A stretch of 27,815 nucleotides of DNA from a virus: IMG/VR virus record IMGVR_UViG_3300030202_000272, positions 1 to 27,815 of that record; one strand, written 5' to 3'. Shown piece after piece: positions 7,087-10,472 of the stretch. The notes under the pieces were generated by a model. That model ran no database searches and was not told the origin of the DNA. It was given only the letters and a program-made list of their open reading frames with translations. The position numbers were made by a program, and so were the translations under genes. The number at the start of each line of letters is the position of its first letter. Position 1 is the first letter of the stretch.

Positions 7087-7530
7087 CTACACATCCTCCC
7101 AAGGCTTGCCCTCGAAAAGCAAAGCCTCTGCTTCCCTTCTTCTTATAAGACCATCCAATACTTTACCGCCAGCCATATTCCAGCGTTTTATCTGTTCTGG
7201 AACACCTTGATAATTGCCATCATTCAAAACTTTTAGCAAAGTGCTAGAAGATAAAGATCCCCAACCCAAGTTAAATGTCCAAGCAACCAGCGCATCGAAC
7301 TGATTCTGACTAAGATCAACTTCAACTAGTCTAGAAACTGCACCCTCAAAGCTTTCCAGATCATCCTTTAAATACTGCTCTGCTTCCTCAGAAGTGCATG
7401 TATCACCTTCTTTTACATCCTTTGTATGACCATAACCTATCGTGTGAACGCCACCAGAGCACACATATGATGAAAGCTCGCAGCCCTCAAACTTTTTTAT
7501 TAAAGCTATGCCTTCTTCGCTAGTTTTCAT
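7087..7530 (-). CDS. Endolysin: GH24 (T4-type) lysozyme
   Basis: A muramidase that cuts the MurNAc-GlcNAc bond of peptidoglycan at the end of infection. The 147-residue form starting at ATG 7530 aligns with the family from its first residues, and AAGGA sits 7-8 nt upstream. The longer reading from GTG 7626 adds 32 residues without family character. The catalytic pattern is clear: Glu15 (KKFEG), Cys24 (YVCSGG) and Thr30 (HTIGYGHT). The spacing of 9 and 6 residues matches Glu11-Asp20-Thr26 of T4 lysozyme, with Cys replacing Asp as in some phage endolysins. FNLGWGSL and RWNMAGGKVLDGLIRRREAE complete the fold. No signal peptide is visible, so release depends on the holin upstream. Confidence 0.92.
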   Translation of the reverse strand: MKTSEEGIALIKKFEGCELSSYVCSGGVHTIGYGHTKDVKEGDTCTSEEAEQYLKDDLESFEGAVSRLVEVDLSQNQFDALVAWTFNLGWGSLSSSTLLKVLNDGNYQGVPEQIKRWNMAGGKVLDGLIRRREAEALLFEGKPWEDV

Positions 7531-7622
7531 TTGTGTTTCCTTCTTTTCTGGAACCGCTGTAAATATGTTTATTTGTGGAATACAGAATAATTTAGTTAAT
7601 CTTCTGTAGCCGCTCCACATGC

Positions 7623-8006
7623 TCACTTTTCTCTACTAACACCTTTAACCTTCTCATAGCTCCTCATCGCACCGATACCCAACATGCCCATCATTACAGG
7701 CACAAGAAGAGTAGTGTCCACCTCAGGCACATCAATCCATATGCCTAAAATGTTTGCTACGATTACATTGTAAAAAAGACCCAACGCACACACCCAACCG
7801 ATACAGGGACGCCACCCGGACACAAACACACTGTGATGCGCTGCCTCTACCTTATTTACCTCTAACTGACCCTTGGCGAGTTCTTGAGCGTGTCGCTCTG
7901 CCATCGTCGCAATCTCATGCGCCAGGGCGTTTTTCTGGTCTTTATCCTCTATTACCTTATCTAATATCTTAGTAGCTGGCTCTATTAATGAATTAAGTAT
8001 GCTCAT
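7623..8006 (-). CDS. Holin, 3-TM (GTA holin) family
   Basis: A 127-residue holin, counted from ATG 8006. It begins MSILNSLIEPATKILDKVIEDKD, an amphipathic helix followed by a charged helix, then FVSGWRPCIGWVCALGLFYN, VIVANILGIW, and a last hydrophobic segment LLVPVMMGMLGIGAMRSYEK. This order and the GWRP...GW and G.G..R.YEK signatures fit the 3TM phage/GTA holin family (Pfam GTA_holin_3TM, from memory). Its role is to make inner-membrane holes for the lysozyme encoded next. The GTG at 8090 in the same frame would add 28 residues. The family pattern and the ATGA junction with the micro-ORF upstream both point to 8006 instead. Confidence 0.88.
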   Translation of the reverse strand: MSILNSLIEPATKILDKVIEDKDQKNALAHEIATMAERHAQELAKGQLEVNKVEAAHHSVFVSGWRPCIGWVCALGLFYNVIVANILGIWIDVPEVDTTLLVPVMMGMLGIGAMRSYEKVKGVSREK

Positions 8007-8080
8007 ATTAGTGACGCTGTTAACTGTGAAACCAACAATAACAAACAAAACAAAGAAATAGCGCACACAATAAGCATCAT
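8003..8080 (-). CDS. 25-aa hydrophobic micro-ORF coupled to holin
   Basis: ATG-ATG at 8080/8077 opens a 25-codon frame that stops in the TGA of the ATGA overlap with the holin start. The peptide begins MMLIVCAISLFCLLLL and is hydrophobic almost throughout, long enough to cross the membrane once. AGGA stands 5 nt before the second ATG, with one further base between it and the first. It could be a true membrane micropeptide tuning holin timing, or a leader whose translation drives holin synthesis. The same bases in another frame give the N-terminal extension of the longer holin reading, so the two explanations compete. No homologue is known to me. Confidence 0.5.
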   Translation of the reverse strand: MMLIVCAISLFCLLLLVSQLTASLI

Positions 8081-8103
8081 TCCTGGCCACTTAGAGTTCA
8101 CTA

Positions 8104-8328
8104 TTACACCGTAACCAATATATGCTGCCCCGTTACCTTAGGGGTTGTGTGACTAAGCTGACCACTTTTATATGTGTACACCTTGGCATCGTACACTGTG
8201 GTAATGATCTCTTGTTTTGCGTTTGTCTCCCTGCCTTGCATACGCTCCATATCTATTTTTTGGATCTGATGCTTAGGCACTGGCTGCACAGCGTTCACGC
8301 TGTTTGGAAATGGTGGTATTTCACTCAT
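8104..8328 (-). CDS. Small hypothetical protein, 74 aa
   Basis: A soluble-looking 74-residue protein beginning MSEIPPFPNSVNAV. It has a Pro-rich start, a charged middle (KIDMERMQGRE) and a beta-rich C-terminus (TTVYDAKVYTYKSGQ, then HILVTV). The start overlaps the upstream gene by 8 nt (ATGAGTGA). I do not recognise the family. Its position between a probable exported protein and the holin suggests membership of the lysis block, but nothing in the sequence shows a lysis role. Confidence 0.55.
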   Translation of the reverse strand: MSEIPPFPNSVNAVQPVPKHQIQKIDMERMQGRETNAKQEIITTVYDAKVYTYKSGQLSHTTPKVTGQHILVTV

Positions 8329-8581
8329 CTTCTTTCTTCCTGACCGGATCTCTAAATATATATTTACCTTTTCCAGCTTCTGCTGAAGGGATTAAACGCA
8401 CCTCACAATACCCGTCAAACTTGTTGGTCTTACTGCGTAACCAGTTATGAGTATGAACACTTTGATGAACCAGCGCATCACGATATTCTAGGCAGCTAGT
8501 TAGTTCTTGAAAATATAGCTCTGTGCCAGTTGGCACTCCACCAGGCGTAAGCAACACTAATACGAAGATCATCAGCGTCAT
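8321..8581 (-). CDS. Small exported or membrane-anchored protein, 86 aa
   Basis: The start chosen is ATG 8581, which forms an ATGA overlap with the stop of the upstream ORF. The in-frame ATG at 8641 would add 20 polar residues that overlie the upstream ORF. From 8581 the protein opens MTLMIFVLVLLTPGG, a signal-peptide-like or anchor segment, followed by a soluble domain with Cys residues in TSCLEYRDAL and DGYCEVRLIP, which could form a disulphide in the periplasm. The last residues are charged (DPVRKKEDE). No lipobox is visible, so it is not an obvious outer-membrane spanin. The role is unknown; the lysis-region context is suggestive only. Confidence 0.6.
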   Translation of the reverse strand: MTLMIFVLVLLTPGGVPTGTELYFQELTSCLEYRDALVHQSVHTHNWLRSKTNKFDGYCEVRLIPSAEAGKGKYIFRDPVRKKEDE

Positions 8582-8862
8582 AGTCTGCGCTTCTTCTTCA
8601 AGGCCTGGGTTCTTTCTGCTTGAGGCGCAACAAGCTCCCATGTCAACACATCTACATCAACTTGGTGGGCAGTGCCTAACACTCTTGGCATTGAGTTTCT
8701 CACGTAGATCATTGCCCCATACCCGCACTGTTGATGATTAAACTTTAACCAATCCTTTGCGACCTCATGGCGTTTTGCCGGTGGGTTTACAAGCTTGAGT
8801 TTGTTCCACTCTCTAAGATCGCAGAACCGATCAGGATTCTCTGGGTCGTAGTCTAATCTTAT
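8578..8862 (-). CDS. ORF lacking a normal start: ATA start or -1 frameshift product
   Basis: This frame ends at TGA 8580-8578, overlapping the next start by ATGA. It reads as a convincing protein: RLDYDPENPDRFCDLREW, NPPAKRHEVAKDWL, QQCGYGAMIYVRNSMPR, VDVLTWELVAPQAERT, ending in KKKRRL. There is no ATG, GTG or TTG from the upstream in-frame TGA (9033-9031) until the Met in GYGAMIY, which would remove half the protein. Two readings are possible. One is initiation at ATA 8862, which overlaps the upstream TAA as ATAA and gives 94 aa. The other is a -1 frameshift in the upstream gene at 9015-9021, giving a 195-aa fusion. The coordinates given are the ATA reading. I do not recognise the family. 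Confidence 0.6.
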   Translation of the reverse strand: MRLDYDPENPDRFCDLREWNKLKLVNPPAKRHEVAKDWLKFNHQQCGYGAMIYVRNSMPRVLGTAHQVDVDVLTWELVAPQAERTQALKKKRRL

Positions 8863-9164
8863 TGCTTTTGAAGCATTATCTGAATCAGTTGCGCCAGCTT
8901 CTCGTCTGTCGCCTTCAGTGTTTCCTGCTGCTGACTCAGGCTGTCCACCACCGCCTTTATCTGCGTCTGATTGACTGCTGACAGTTGGCCGTTGGCTACT
9001 GCCTGTTCCGCTGTCTTTTTTACAGCTTGCTCAATCCTTTGAACCTCTGCATCTGTAGCCTCTGCTCTTGCTTGCATAGATCCCCATGCAATAGCTCCAG
9101 ACAATGCGGCGGCAGCTATTGGCAACGCCCATGTCGGAACTTTTATAGTGTTTGCATCACTCAT
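8859..9164 (-). CDS. Membrane-anchored coiled-coil protein, possible frameshift donor
   Basis: A 101-residue protein with one N-terminal membrane segment (WALPIAAAALSGAIAWG, residues of about 12-28). It is followed by a long coiled-coil-like helix rich in Gln, Glu, Lys and Ala, through to LAQLIQIMLQKQ. The topology resembles inner-membrane spanins (Rz-like), and it lies in the lysis region, but the match is topological only. AGGAG precedes the ATG. At codons 48-50 the sequence GTA AAA AAG contains the slippery heptamer A AAA AAG in the zero frame, and the -1 frame stays open to 8578. The gene may therefore yield both the 101-aa product and a 195-aa product sharing its first 50 residues. Confidence 0.7.
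   Translation of the reverse strand: MSDANTIKVPTWALPIAAAALSGAIAWGSMQARAEATDAEVQRIEQAVKKTAEQAVANGQLSAVNQTQIKAVVDSLSQQQETLKATDEKLAQLIQIMLQKQ
8980..9040 (-). promoter_or_regulatory. Candidate programmed -1 frameshift signal
   Basis: Read on the minus strand, three elements stand in order: an SD-like AAAGGA (9040-9035), a 13-nt spacer, and the heptamer A AAA AAG (9021-9015) in the zero frame of the 101-aa gene. GACAG at 9015-9011 can pair with CTGTC at 8984-8980, enclosing a smaller GGC-AGTA-GCC hairpin. The -1 frame has a TGA at 9033-9031 and then no stop until 8580. The layout resembles dnaX-type frameshifting, where an upstream SD and a downstream stem stimulate slippage. Here the outer stem starts at the heptamer itself, closer than usual. 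Confidence 0.5.
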
Positions 9165-9165
9165 A

Positions 9166-9354
9166 CTAAGCTCCTAAAAACTGGGGAACCAAAAGACTCC
9201 CTATAATTAAAATAATAACGCCCCACAACATTCGCTCGATACGATCAAACCTTCTTGATCCATCAGCTAATCTTTCTTCAATTCTTTCATAGCGAAGAGC
9301 ACACTCTCTTTCATGTGTGTTTATCTCTTGCAAAGCTTCTTCTGCCTTATCCAC
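9166..9354 (-). CDS. Small coiled-coil protein with C-terminal membrane anchor
   Basis: A 62-residue protein with a GTG start, 2 nt after the upstream stop. Residues 1-42 are highly charged and helical (EINTHERECALRYERIEERL, then RRFDRIERM). Residues of about 43-60 are a membrane anchor (LWGVIILIIGSLLVPQF). Small phage proteins of this pattern are often found beside holins, and it resembles haemolysin XhlA-type proteins in layout only. Together with the 55-aa and 101-aa neighbours it forms a run of single-TM proteins upstream of the holin-lysozyme pair. Confidence 0.65.
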   Translation of the reverse strand: MDKAEEALQEINTHERECALRYERIEERLADGSRRFDRIERMLWGVIILIIGSLLVPQFLGA

Positions 9355-9524: not shown

Positions 9525-9781
9525 TACTGCACAACCTCTTTTTCTTCTTCAACAGCTTTAACAGAGTTCTTGAGATCCATTTCTCTTTTAGCAATCGCGA
9601 GTTGAAGGTCATGGGCATCCTCCTGCAAACCAGCTATCTGATTCATCGTGTTTTCAAATCTTGCTTTGAGATTCTGTAGCCTAACAATCTGTCGGTGTTC
9701 TTCTGGCTTGAGGTCTTCTATCTTGTATTCTTCGCCAAAGATGGTTACTACAGGTGTTTCTTCAGTGCTTTGTTCCGTCAT
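9524..9781 (-). CDS. Small coiled-coil protein, DUF6447-like
   Basis: An 85-residue acidic protein. The first 30 residues give VVTIFGEEYKIEDLKPEE, a beta-hairpin followed by a helix. The rest is a coiled coil rich in Gln, Asn, Glu and Ala (NTMNQIAGLQEDAHDLQL). The arrangement matches small phage proteins of the DUF6447 type as I remember them; I could not verify this. The start overlaps the oxygenase gene by 20 nt, with GGAGA 8 nt upstream. A role is unknown. Confidence 0.65.
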   Translation of the reverse strand: MTEQSTEETPVVTIFGEEYKIEDLKPEEHRQIVRLQNLKARFENTMNQIAGLQEDAHDLQLAIAKREMDLKNSVKAVEEEKEVVQ

Positions 9782-10472
9782 CTGCTATTCTCCAAACATT
9801 TAAATTAGCTGCTACTGTTCTTCGCTCTCCGTCCCCCTTGAATGGGTACACACTATGTTGTAACCAGGAAGGAAACATAAAAAACTTACCAACTTCGGGT
9901 TTCATAATCACCATCTGAGGTGGGCGTAATCGCTCTGTATCCATCAACGAACCTTGTCCGTATTGAAATGTGATACATCCATCCGAATGACCGCTAGAAT
10001 TATACAACCCATATTCGCTTGTGCCAGAGGTCGGCTGATCTAATATCTGTTGTGGCACTTTAGTCCAGCACGTACAACTGATACCCATAAGAGTTTTGGT
10101 GCCGTGATCATGCACCGGGTTGTAATCACCCGCATAACTATGCACAGACCAGCACTCATCGGTTTCTACAATGCGGTTTTCGTTGAAGGGGTTAACCGTA
10201 GAACCGGCAAAGTTTTTAACGTAATCAGCACCCATACATTGAATTAGCTCGTTGAACTCTTGAATCTTTGGATGCGTGTGATCCATTGTCAGTTGTTCGC
10301 CGTTGCCGATCTGACCAACCAACGTGCCAGCATGAGATACCCGGTCTTCTTGATTTAGAAGATCATCCAAGTACTCGTTGAGATCGTTGACCATCTCATC
10401 AGACAGCATCGCCTCCATCAGAAATACCGATGGTAATGAGTGCATTTTATATTCTTGTCTGACTTCGGGCAT
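9762..10472 (-). CDS. 2OG-Fe(II) oxygenase (2OG-FeII_Oxy_5 type)
   Basis: A 236-residue protein with the double-stranded beta-helix signature of 2-oxoglutarate/Fe(II) dioxygenases. ETDECWSVHSYAGDYNPVHD leads to His121-Asp122-His123, the proximal metal motif. GKFFMFPSWLQHSVYPF gives distal His206, and GERRTVAANLNV gives Arg217/218 as the candidate 2OG carboxylate ligand. The layout resembles Pfam 2OG-FeII_Oxy_5, common in marine phages. The substrate is not shown. Because the gene is among virion genes, just after the tail fibre, protein hydroxylation is plausible, but a host or nucleic-acid target is possible. A strong SD (GAGGAGA) precedes the ATG. TISCTCW-like Cys at 133 and 135 are additional to the core motif. 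Confidence 0.85.
   Translation of the reverse strand: MPEVRQEYKMHSLPSVFLMEAMLSDEMVNDLNEYLDDLLNQEDRVSHAGTLVGQIGNGEQLTMDHTHPKIQEFNELIQCMGADYVKNFAGSTVNPFNENRIVETDECWSVHSYAGDYNPVHDHGTKTLMGISCTCWTKVPQQILDQPTSGTSEYGLYNSSGHSDGCITFQYGQGSLMDTERLRPPQMVIMKPEVGKFFMFPSWLQHSVYPFKGDGERRTVAANLNVWRIADDGTKH

Follow-up and report, generated by a model that had tools for sequence, protein, structure and literature searches.

Lysis region of the window and the small gene before the holin

The window, by which the whole analysed stretch, a virus record of 27,815 bases, is meant, encodes a portal protein nearest to those of Pelagibacter phages HTVC027P and HTVC023P (41–43% identity); judging by such pelagiphage-type relatives, the phages considered here are probably marine. 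On the minus strand, genes 9166–9354, 8859–9164, 8321–8641 and 8104–8328 are followed by a small frame, a holin gene (7623–8006) and a lysozyme gene (7087–7626). The holin, which starts with ATG, is assigned to GTA_holin_3TM (PF11351, Pfam 3.2e-16; phrog_3427, PHROGs 2e-35), and the endolysin to the phage lysozymes (PF00959, Pfam 2.9e-48). The lysozyme frame (start region at window 7530–7626) opens with a GTG that shares a GTGA with the holin stop, but many of the 80 relatives listed align only from about residue 25–36, so that either translation begins further in or the first codons represent a lineage-specific extension. The gene directly upstream of the small frame (8104–8328, minus strand) encodes a conserved 74-aa protein of unknown function with no Pfam or PHROGs match; it has a relative in 40 loci and, by gene order, marks the slot that an EF-hand-like gene occupies in related phages. 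Two further minus-strand genes upstream of the lysis genes gave weak library rows only: the product of 9166–9354 has a C-terminal hydrophobic stretch, and that of 8859–9164, just upstream of the lysis genes, has an N-terminal hydrophobic stretch with a long helical-looking remainder and, by eye, could be spanin-like. Upstream of the lysis region, a putative 2OG-Fe(II) oxygenase (PF13759, 1.5e-14) is encoded at 9762–10472 (minus strand).

A sequence-only reading of the window had described a hydrophobic 25-aa micro-ORF at 8003–8080 that ends in the TGA of an ATGA, with the ATG used by the holin. On the minus strand, ATG is present at 8080–8078 and again at 8077–8075, and the TGA (8005–8003) overlaps the holin ATG (8006–8004) in an ATGA junction (8003–8006). 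The frame, its hydrophobicity and the overlap hold; the start and the length do not, and the gene is described here as 32 codons at 8003–8101 on the minus strand. The frame is open upstream to a GTG at 8101, two bases past the TAA of the 8104–8328 gene, and among the seven other records with a stand-alone frame the codon at this place is ATG in six (L003, L004, L162, L198, L203 and L088) and GTG in one (L002). The motif K-W-P-G, within the residues coded by 8101–8080, is conserved; the internal Met pair is Met-Leu in L088 and has no Met in any of the eight aligned nested relatives described below. Because the start place and K-W-P-G are conserved and the internal Met pair is not, the product is most likely the 32-aa peptide MNSKWPGMMLIVCAISLFCLLLLVSQLTASLI.

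This peptide is nearly all hydrophobic, with a best 19-residue Kyte–Doolittle mean of 2.72, and AlphaFold2 modelling predicts a single helix at residues 6–31 (mean pLDDT 86.5), which gives the peptide the at least one transmembrane helix expected of a holin or antiholin. We read the product as a predicted single-pass membrane protein, the stand-alone form of a family that is nested elsewhere. The start codon shared by position with six relatives as ATG, the purifying selection in this frame and the homology to a nested +1 frame make it almost certain that the small frame is a real conserved coding gene. In line with the expectation that annotation would miss it, the window peptide has no Pfam or PHROGs family match; no match to the 32-aa peptide was found by tblastn in 50,697 annotated phage records.

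The sequence-only reading had also placed the holin start at ATG 8006, and the related loci agree. The holin relatives are the best 80 of 590, a list that is not exhaustive: it includes three stand-alone records and misses three others whose holins are 98–99% identical. Among 78 of these 80 loci (L047 and L065 were left out), many have a stop in the holin frame only a few codons upstream of the Met, and the sequence there varies between phages. Shine–Dalgarno motifs do not clearly separate holins coupled to a preceding gene from uncoupled ones: strict motifs precede 10 of 32 coupled versus 9 of 18 uncoupled holins, and loose motifs 18 of 32 versus 9 of 18. This count covers 75 of the 80 loci, collapsed to 50 distinct ones, after removal of L018, L050 and L056 (short upstream sequence) and of L047 and L065 (holin cut).

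Stand-alone relatives and homology to a nested frame

The stand-alone frame is present in eight records, namely the window and the contigs behind L002, L003, L004, L162, L198, L203 and L088, which contain six distinct gene sequences; five of these share every base from codon 11 onwards, and the L002 gene sequence equals that of the window. Since the peptide or its neighbours served to find these records, the presence of the frame in them is no test in itself; scans by pattern and by alignment for further stand-alone members yielded six records each. The conserved hydrophobic peptide with an ATGA junction, proposed in the sequence-only reading as a thing to look for in relatives, is found in seven of the eight, where the gene ends in ATGA on a holin 98–100% identical to that of the window; the eighth, L088, keeps the peptide without the junction, its small gene ending in TAG and the holin match (61%) beginning about 320 bases further. 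Over 29 codons, the window and L088 differ in the small frame by 10 synonymous and 9 nonsynonymous changes (dN/dS 0.26), a within-group estimate of selection that draws largely on L088 as the most diverged stand-alone relative of the window.

A tblastn search with the peptide against the fetched loci matched many of these loci in the +1 frame of a longer gene. In related phages, this gene of 106 codons, encoding an EF-hand-like protein with two helices, occupies by gene order the slot of the small gene, after the homologue of 8104–8328. The 106-residue host protein matches PF00036 at 0.0012, below the cut-off of that family, and phrog_27150, of unknown function, at 1.8e-11; its AlphaFold2 model is weak (mean pLDDT 69.5). 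Relatives at 33–43% identity, labelled hypothetical, occur in fifteen of the 50,697 annotated phage records. Relatives with 73% identity (L289, L290) were also seen on contigs of two metagenome-assembled genomes labelled Sphingobacteriales and Rickettsiales, which may be phage contigs binned with bacteria. The small gene shares the slot of this host gene, which carries the nested frame, but is coded in the other frame.

Comparison over 25 codons with the nested frame of locus L246 revealed 30 nucleotide differences, distributed 10/1/19 over the nested codon positions, and 20 of the 25 residues agree; the nested frame gives a dN/dS of 0.20 and the host frame one of 8.65. When the same number of nucleotide differences was placed at random, the observed amino-acid identity to the nearest nested relative was never reached (0 of 20,000). 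By these comparisons, the window peptide is homologous to the product predicted from the nested +1 frame of the EF-hand-like, two-helix gene.

The alignment with L246 and L213 also outlines how the stand-alone form arose. The window gene opens at the start region of the host gene (ATGAAYCCTAAG in the relatives versus ATGAATGCTAAG in the window) and picks up again, in the +1 frame, at host codon 50. From the start to TGG there are 12 bases in the window and 148 in L246, a net loss of 136 bases (3 × 45 + 1) with breakpoints that cannot be fixed exactly; the distance from the TGG to the holin ATG, taken from coordinates, is 83 bases in the window versus 169. A search for the EF-hand-like gene did not find it in any of the seven stand-alone records searched, which may themselves be fragments, and found it in all three positive controls. 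A net 136-nt (3n + 1) deletion put the host gene's own start region ahead of the nested frame, and a second deletion took out the rest of the host gene, bringing the small-gene stop onto the holin ATG. The comparison shows that the nested protein was retained in the window lineage while the host protein was lost.

Selection on the nested frame in the clades of the host gene

The first set of host genes, from which 27 gapped rows and also cut or interrupted ones were dropped, comprised 139 genes, 87 of them distinct and ungapped (59 of type B and 28 of type C); 67 genes of type C and 23 of type D were compared later. In the largest group of type B, clade B1, the +1 frame is open to its stop in all 45 distinct genes, with the stop at +1 codon 78 in 40 and at codon 81 in 5; the nested start is TTG in 44 of the 45, and a GGAG lies ten bases ahead of it in all 45. 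Ten nucleotides is a long spacing for such a site, and TTG is a weak start. In codon-resampled genes, the frame was open in 8.5%, any start codon was present in 19% and GGAG in 19%, so the conserved nested start, stop and ribosome-binding site are those expected of an overlapping gene. In eight B1 genes, host residue 32 is Thr and not Gln; its codon is ACG, and the GGAG is kept. L216 (on the same contig as L081), the only B1 gene without TTG, has an open frame back to an ATG at +1 codon 25, where the clade C genes also carry their ATG, which suggests a start switch between the clades.

Host-frame variation in B1 falls where the nested frame lies. Third-position changes per codon are 8.36, 8.5 and 5.5 in codons 2–12, 13–24 and 25–36, then 3.67, 2.64 and 1.44 in codons 37–48, 49–62 and 63–78, and afterwards 9.0 and 8.86, and first-position changes, which correspond to the nested-frame wobble, reach 3.19 in codons 63–78. 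Counted along minimum-spanning-tree edges, codons 37–78 have 101 synonymous third-position changes versus 266 expected, and the codons outside 555 versus 390, an inside-to-outside ratio of host-frame synonymous change of 0.27; codons 63–78 alone have 17 versus 114 expected. The lowest of all 42-codon windows in B1 begins precisely with the nested start codon, codon 37. Since B1 was first chosen by the motif of the nested frame itself, which is partly circular, the ratio was recalculated without codons 60–70 (0.35) and by pooling all 59 B genes (0.41), and the genes were clustered on the codons outside the region only (k = 5); this clustering recovered B1 as exactly one cluster of 45 and separated a cluster of 7 genes in which 4 are open and the ratio is 1.2.

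The sister clade C, taken at first as a negative control, was reassigned as it carries the signal. All 67 genes have an ATG at +1 codon 25 and a common nested stop, with the frame open between them in 66. The ratio is 0.43, so that reduced host-frame synonymous change, as expected over an overlapping gene, is found in both B1 and C; in clade C it is strongest in codons 49–66 (30 synonymous changes versus 116 expected), milder from there to codon 78 and near normal in codons 25–48. The nested frame of this clade (L293–L372 and other loci) spans codons 25–81 in the +1 frame of the EF-hand-like gene, with the ATG at codon 25, before which no clear ribosome-binding site is seen, as a putative start in view of the near-normal change in codons 25–48. 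Clade D is without signal (ratio 1.02, 2 of 23 open), and clade B2 has little, not being perfectly flat (ratio 0.76, nominal p 0.023, 4 of 14 open). The comparison of the clades excludes 3 gapped and 12 partial rows as well as 3 of the 70 C genes, which were removed by an 85% identity limit.

Two other causes of the low synonymous change were considered. RNA folding does not explain it, five B1 stretches folding no better than shuffled sequences (z 0.25 to 2.79). The fraction of changes that are synonymous rises in the nested region not only in the +1 frame (0.36, expected 0.27) but also in one antisense frame (0.34, expected 0.23), and the two readings are separated by openness only; the antisense frame that shares the wobble position is uninterrupted in no more than 4 of 45 B1 genes, which excludes an antisense gene of this kind. 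We hold with high confidence that the +1 frame in the relatives is a nested gene with a predicted product.

The nested homologues end inside the host gene, and where the host gene is adjacent to the holin, it forms its own ATGA or similar junction with it. Among the 45 B1 loci, the holin follows the host gene directly in 18, a nuclease-like gene in 14 and another stretch in 4, within about 400 bases downstream in all these 36; the remaining 9 have no match to this holin within the stretch fetched. The intervening gene (in L005, L012, L028, L205 and others) is staphylococcal-nuclease-like (PF00565, 6.3e-12 for L205), and in several such loci an ATGA joins its stop to the holin start. The holin seems to be coupled to whichever gene precedes it.

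Possible function, alternative readings and known embedded genes

A genuine small membrane-protein gene, freed from its host gene, with a part in lysis and coupled to the holin, is the best overall explanation of the locus and, in our judgement, a reasonably probable one. Ribosomes finishing the 74-aa gene would restart at GTG 8101 and make the peptide, and termination–reinitiation at the ATGA would pass them on to the holin, the two proteins being made together. The peptide would insert as one helix with the N terminus in the cytoplasm, an orientation proposed because the nested forms are lysine-rich at the N terminus. A part in the lysis programme is proposed because the small gene precedes the holin and the lysozyme; from this position, we would give a lysis-related function about even chances. 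The peptide could act most likely as a small holin partner or antiholin and less likely as a second holin, and the specific assignment as antiholin or holin partner is more doubtful than a lysis-related function in general. The 'timing peptide' proposed in the sequence-only reading is a possible role of this kind. Single-helix holins, pinholins and antiholins share with the peptide their size class, a hydrophobic helix and a place near holin and lysozyme. Neither the stand-alone nor the nested peptide matched a known holin family in Pfam or PHROGs; the nested peptide had no PHROGs match at all and gave only sub-threshold, non-holin Pfam rows (NDUF_B12 at 0.022 as the best, Doppel at 0.36).

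The main alternative, unlikely as we see it, is a membrane protein with a role outside lysis, such as superinfection exclusion or protection of the infected-cell membrane, whose gene just happens to be part of the lysis operon. Proteins of this size with a single helix have many different roles, and the holin directly follows fewer than half of the nested B1 genes. For phage Fc02, overlapping genes with exclusion activity have been reported in print (PMC9936078). This alternative is countered by the holin match close downstream in 36 of the 45 B1 loci and directly after the gene in seven of the eight stand-alone records.

It is improbable that, in clades with the nested frame, translation enters the +1 frame through programmed frameshifting at the A-rich host codons 40–43 (CAA GAA GAA AAA), which would fuse the EF-hand-like part to the nested helix. 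These codons do vary little at third positions in B1 (0, 1, 5 and 1 changes), but the GGAG and the start codon are kept upstream of the A-rich stretch, and the stand-alone proteins have no EF-hand-like part.

Somewhat less probable still is a pure translational leader, also raised in the sequence-only reading, in which the act of translation through the small frame would link the holin with the upstream gene, the peptide being inert. The ATGA overlap in seven of eight stand-alone records would fit such a leader, as would the lack of GGAG, GAGG or AGGA ahead of the L002 holin start, a stretch in which L002 and the window do not differ. A leader, however, leaves the purifying selection on the amino-acid sequence unexplained, and its junction should accompany the peptide wherever that occurs; L088 keeps the peptide without any junction to the holin, and most homologues found are nested and end inside the host gene. 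That the small frame is a functionless, decaying leftover of the EF-hand-like gene, in whose slot it sits in a shorter form, is very improbable in view of the codon pattern and of the low small-frame dN/dS against both L088 and L246. Least credible of all is an N-terminal holin extension of 28 codons, for which the holin frame is open back to a GTG at 8090: conservation of this frame had been named as the finding that would overturn the micro-ORF, and it differs from L088 by 0 synonymous and 17 nonsynonymous changes, a result that favours the small frame, as does the closure of the holin frame shortly upstream of the Met in many related loci.

With the freed, lysis-associated membrane protein as the preferred reading, some known systems are close in architecture. 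The sgl genes of ssRNA phages and gene E of phage phiX174 are the sole lysis genes of phages that have neither holin nor endolysin. Gene E, like the sgl genes, is an out-of-frame embedded single-helix lysis gene. An o-spanin of the Rz1 type is recognised by a lipobox, [LVI][ASTVI][GAS]C, after the signal sequence. The window peptide has L-I-V-C and most B1 members L-G-V-C or L-S-V-C, which do not fit; a few B1 members, e.g., L226, L227 and L228 (L-S-A-C), do match the motif letter by letter, but their Cys is followed by a hydrophobic run, and identification as an o-spanin is disfavoured.

According to PMC7693330, 21 of 33 active sgl candidates are fully embedded in rep in the +1 frame, which likewise places a short membrane protein out of frame inside another gene. 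Unlike the phages with sgl genes or gene E, those studied here have a holin and a lysozyme, and the lysis activity of the small peptide is only putative. In the Rz/Rz1 spanins, too, a gene of the lysis region contains that of a small envelope protein in another frame (PMC6139136). That spanin survey reports no family with both embedded and overlapped or separated members; unlike the Rz/Rz1 families recorded there, the family of the small peptide has both nested and stand-alone members. No paper describing the nested gene was found in the open-access literature by title or by the start of the abstract.

A broader and tentative reading, which we hold with less than even confidence, is that of an unnamed family of nested single-helix lysis regulators in a large group of probably marine phages, with the two-helix membrane protein of the host gene maybe as a partner and the window carrying the freed, holin-coupled form. 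To our knowledge, lysis control in pelagiphage-like phages has been little studied, and the present analysis places a further, unannotated membrane protein among the lysis genes of phages with a portal protein closest to those of two pelagiphages. Nested genes are usually argued from the codon statistics of one frame alone; here, the same protein occurs both nested and free, so that the free form reveals selection on the protein independently of the host frame, which comes close to a natural experiment. The loss of the host gene together with the retention of the nested gene tells which of the two products was kept in the window lineage. A family that crosses the line between embedded and free makes the route between both states testable, and the window illustrates how a nested gene can become independent of the gene that hosts it.
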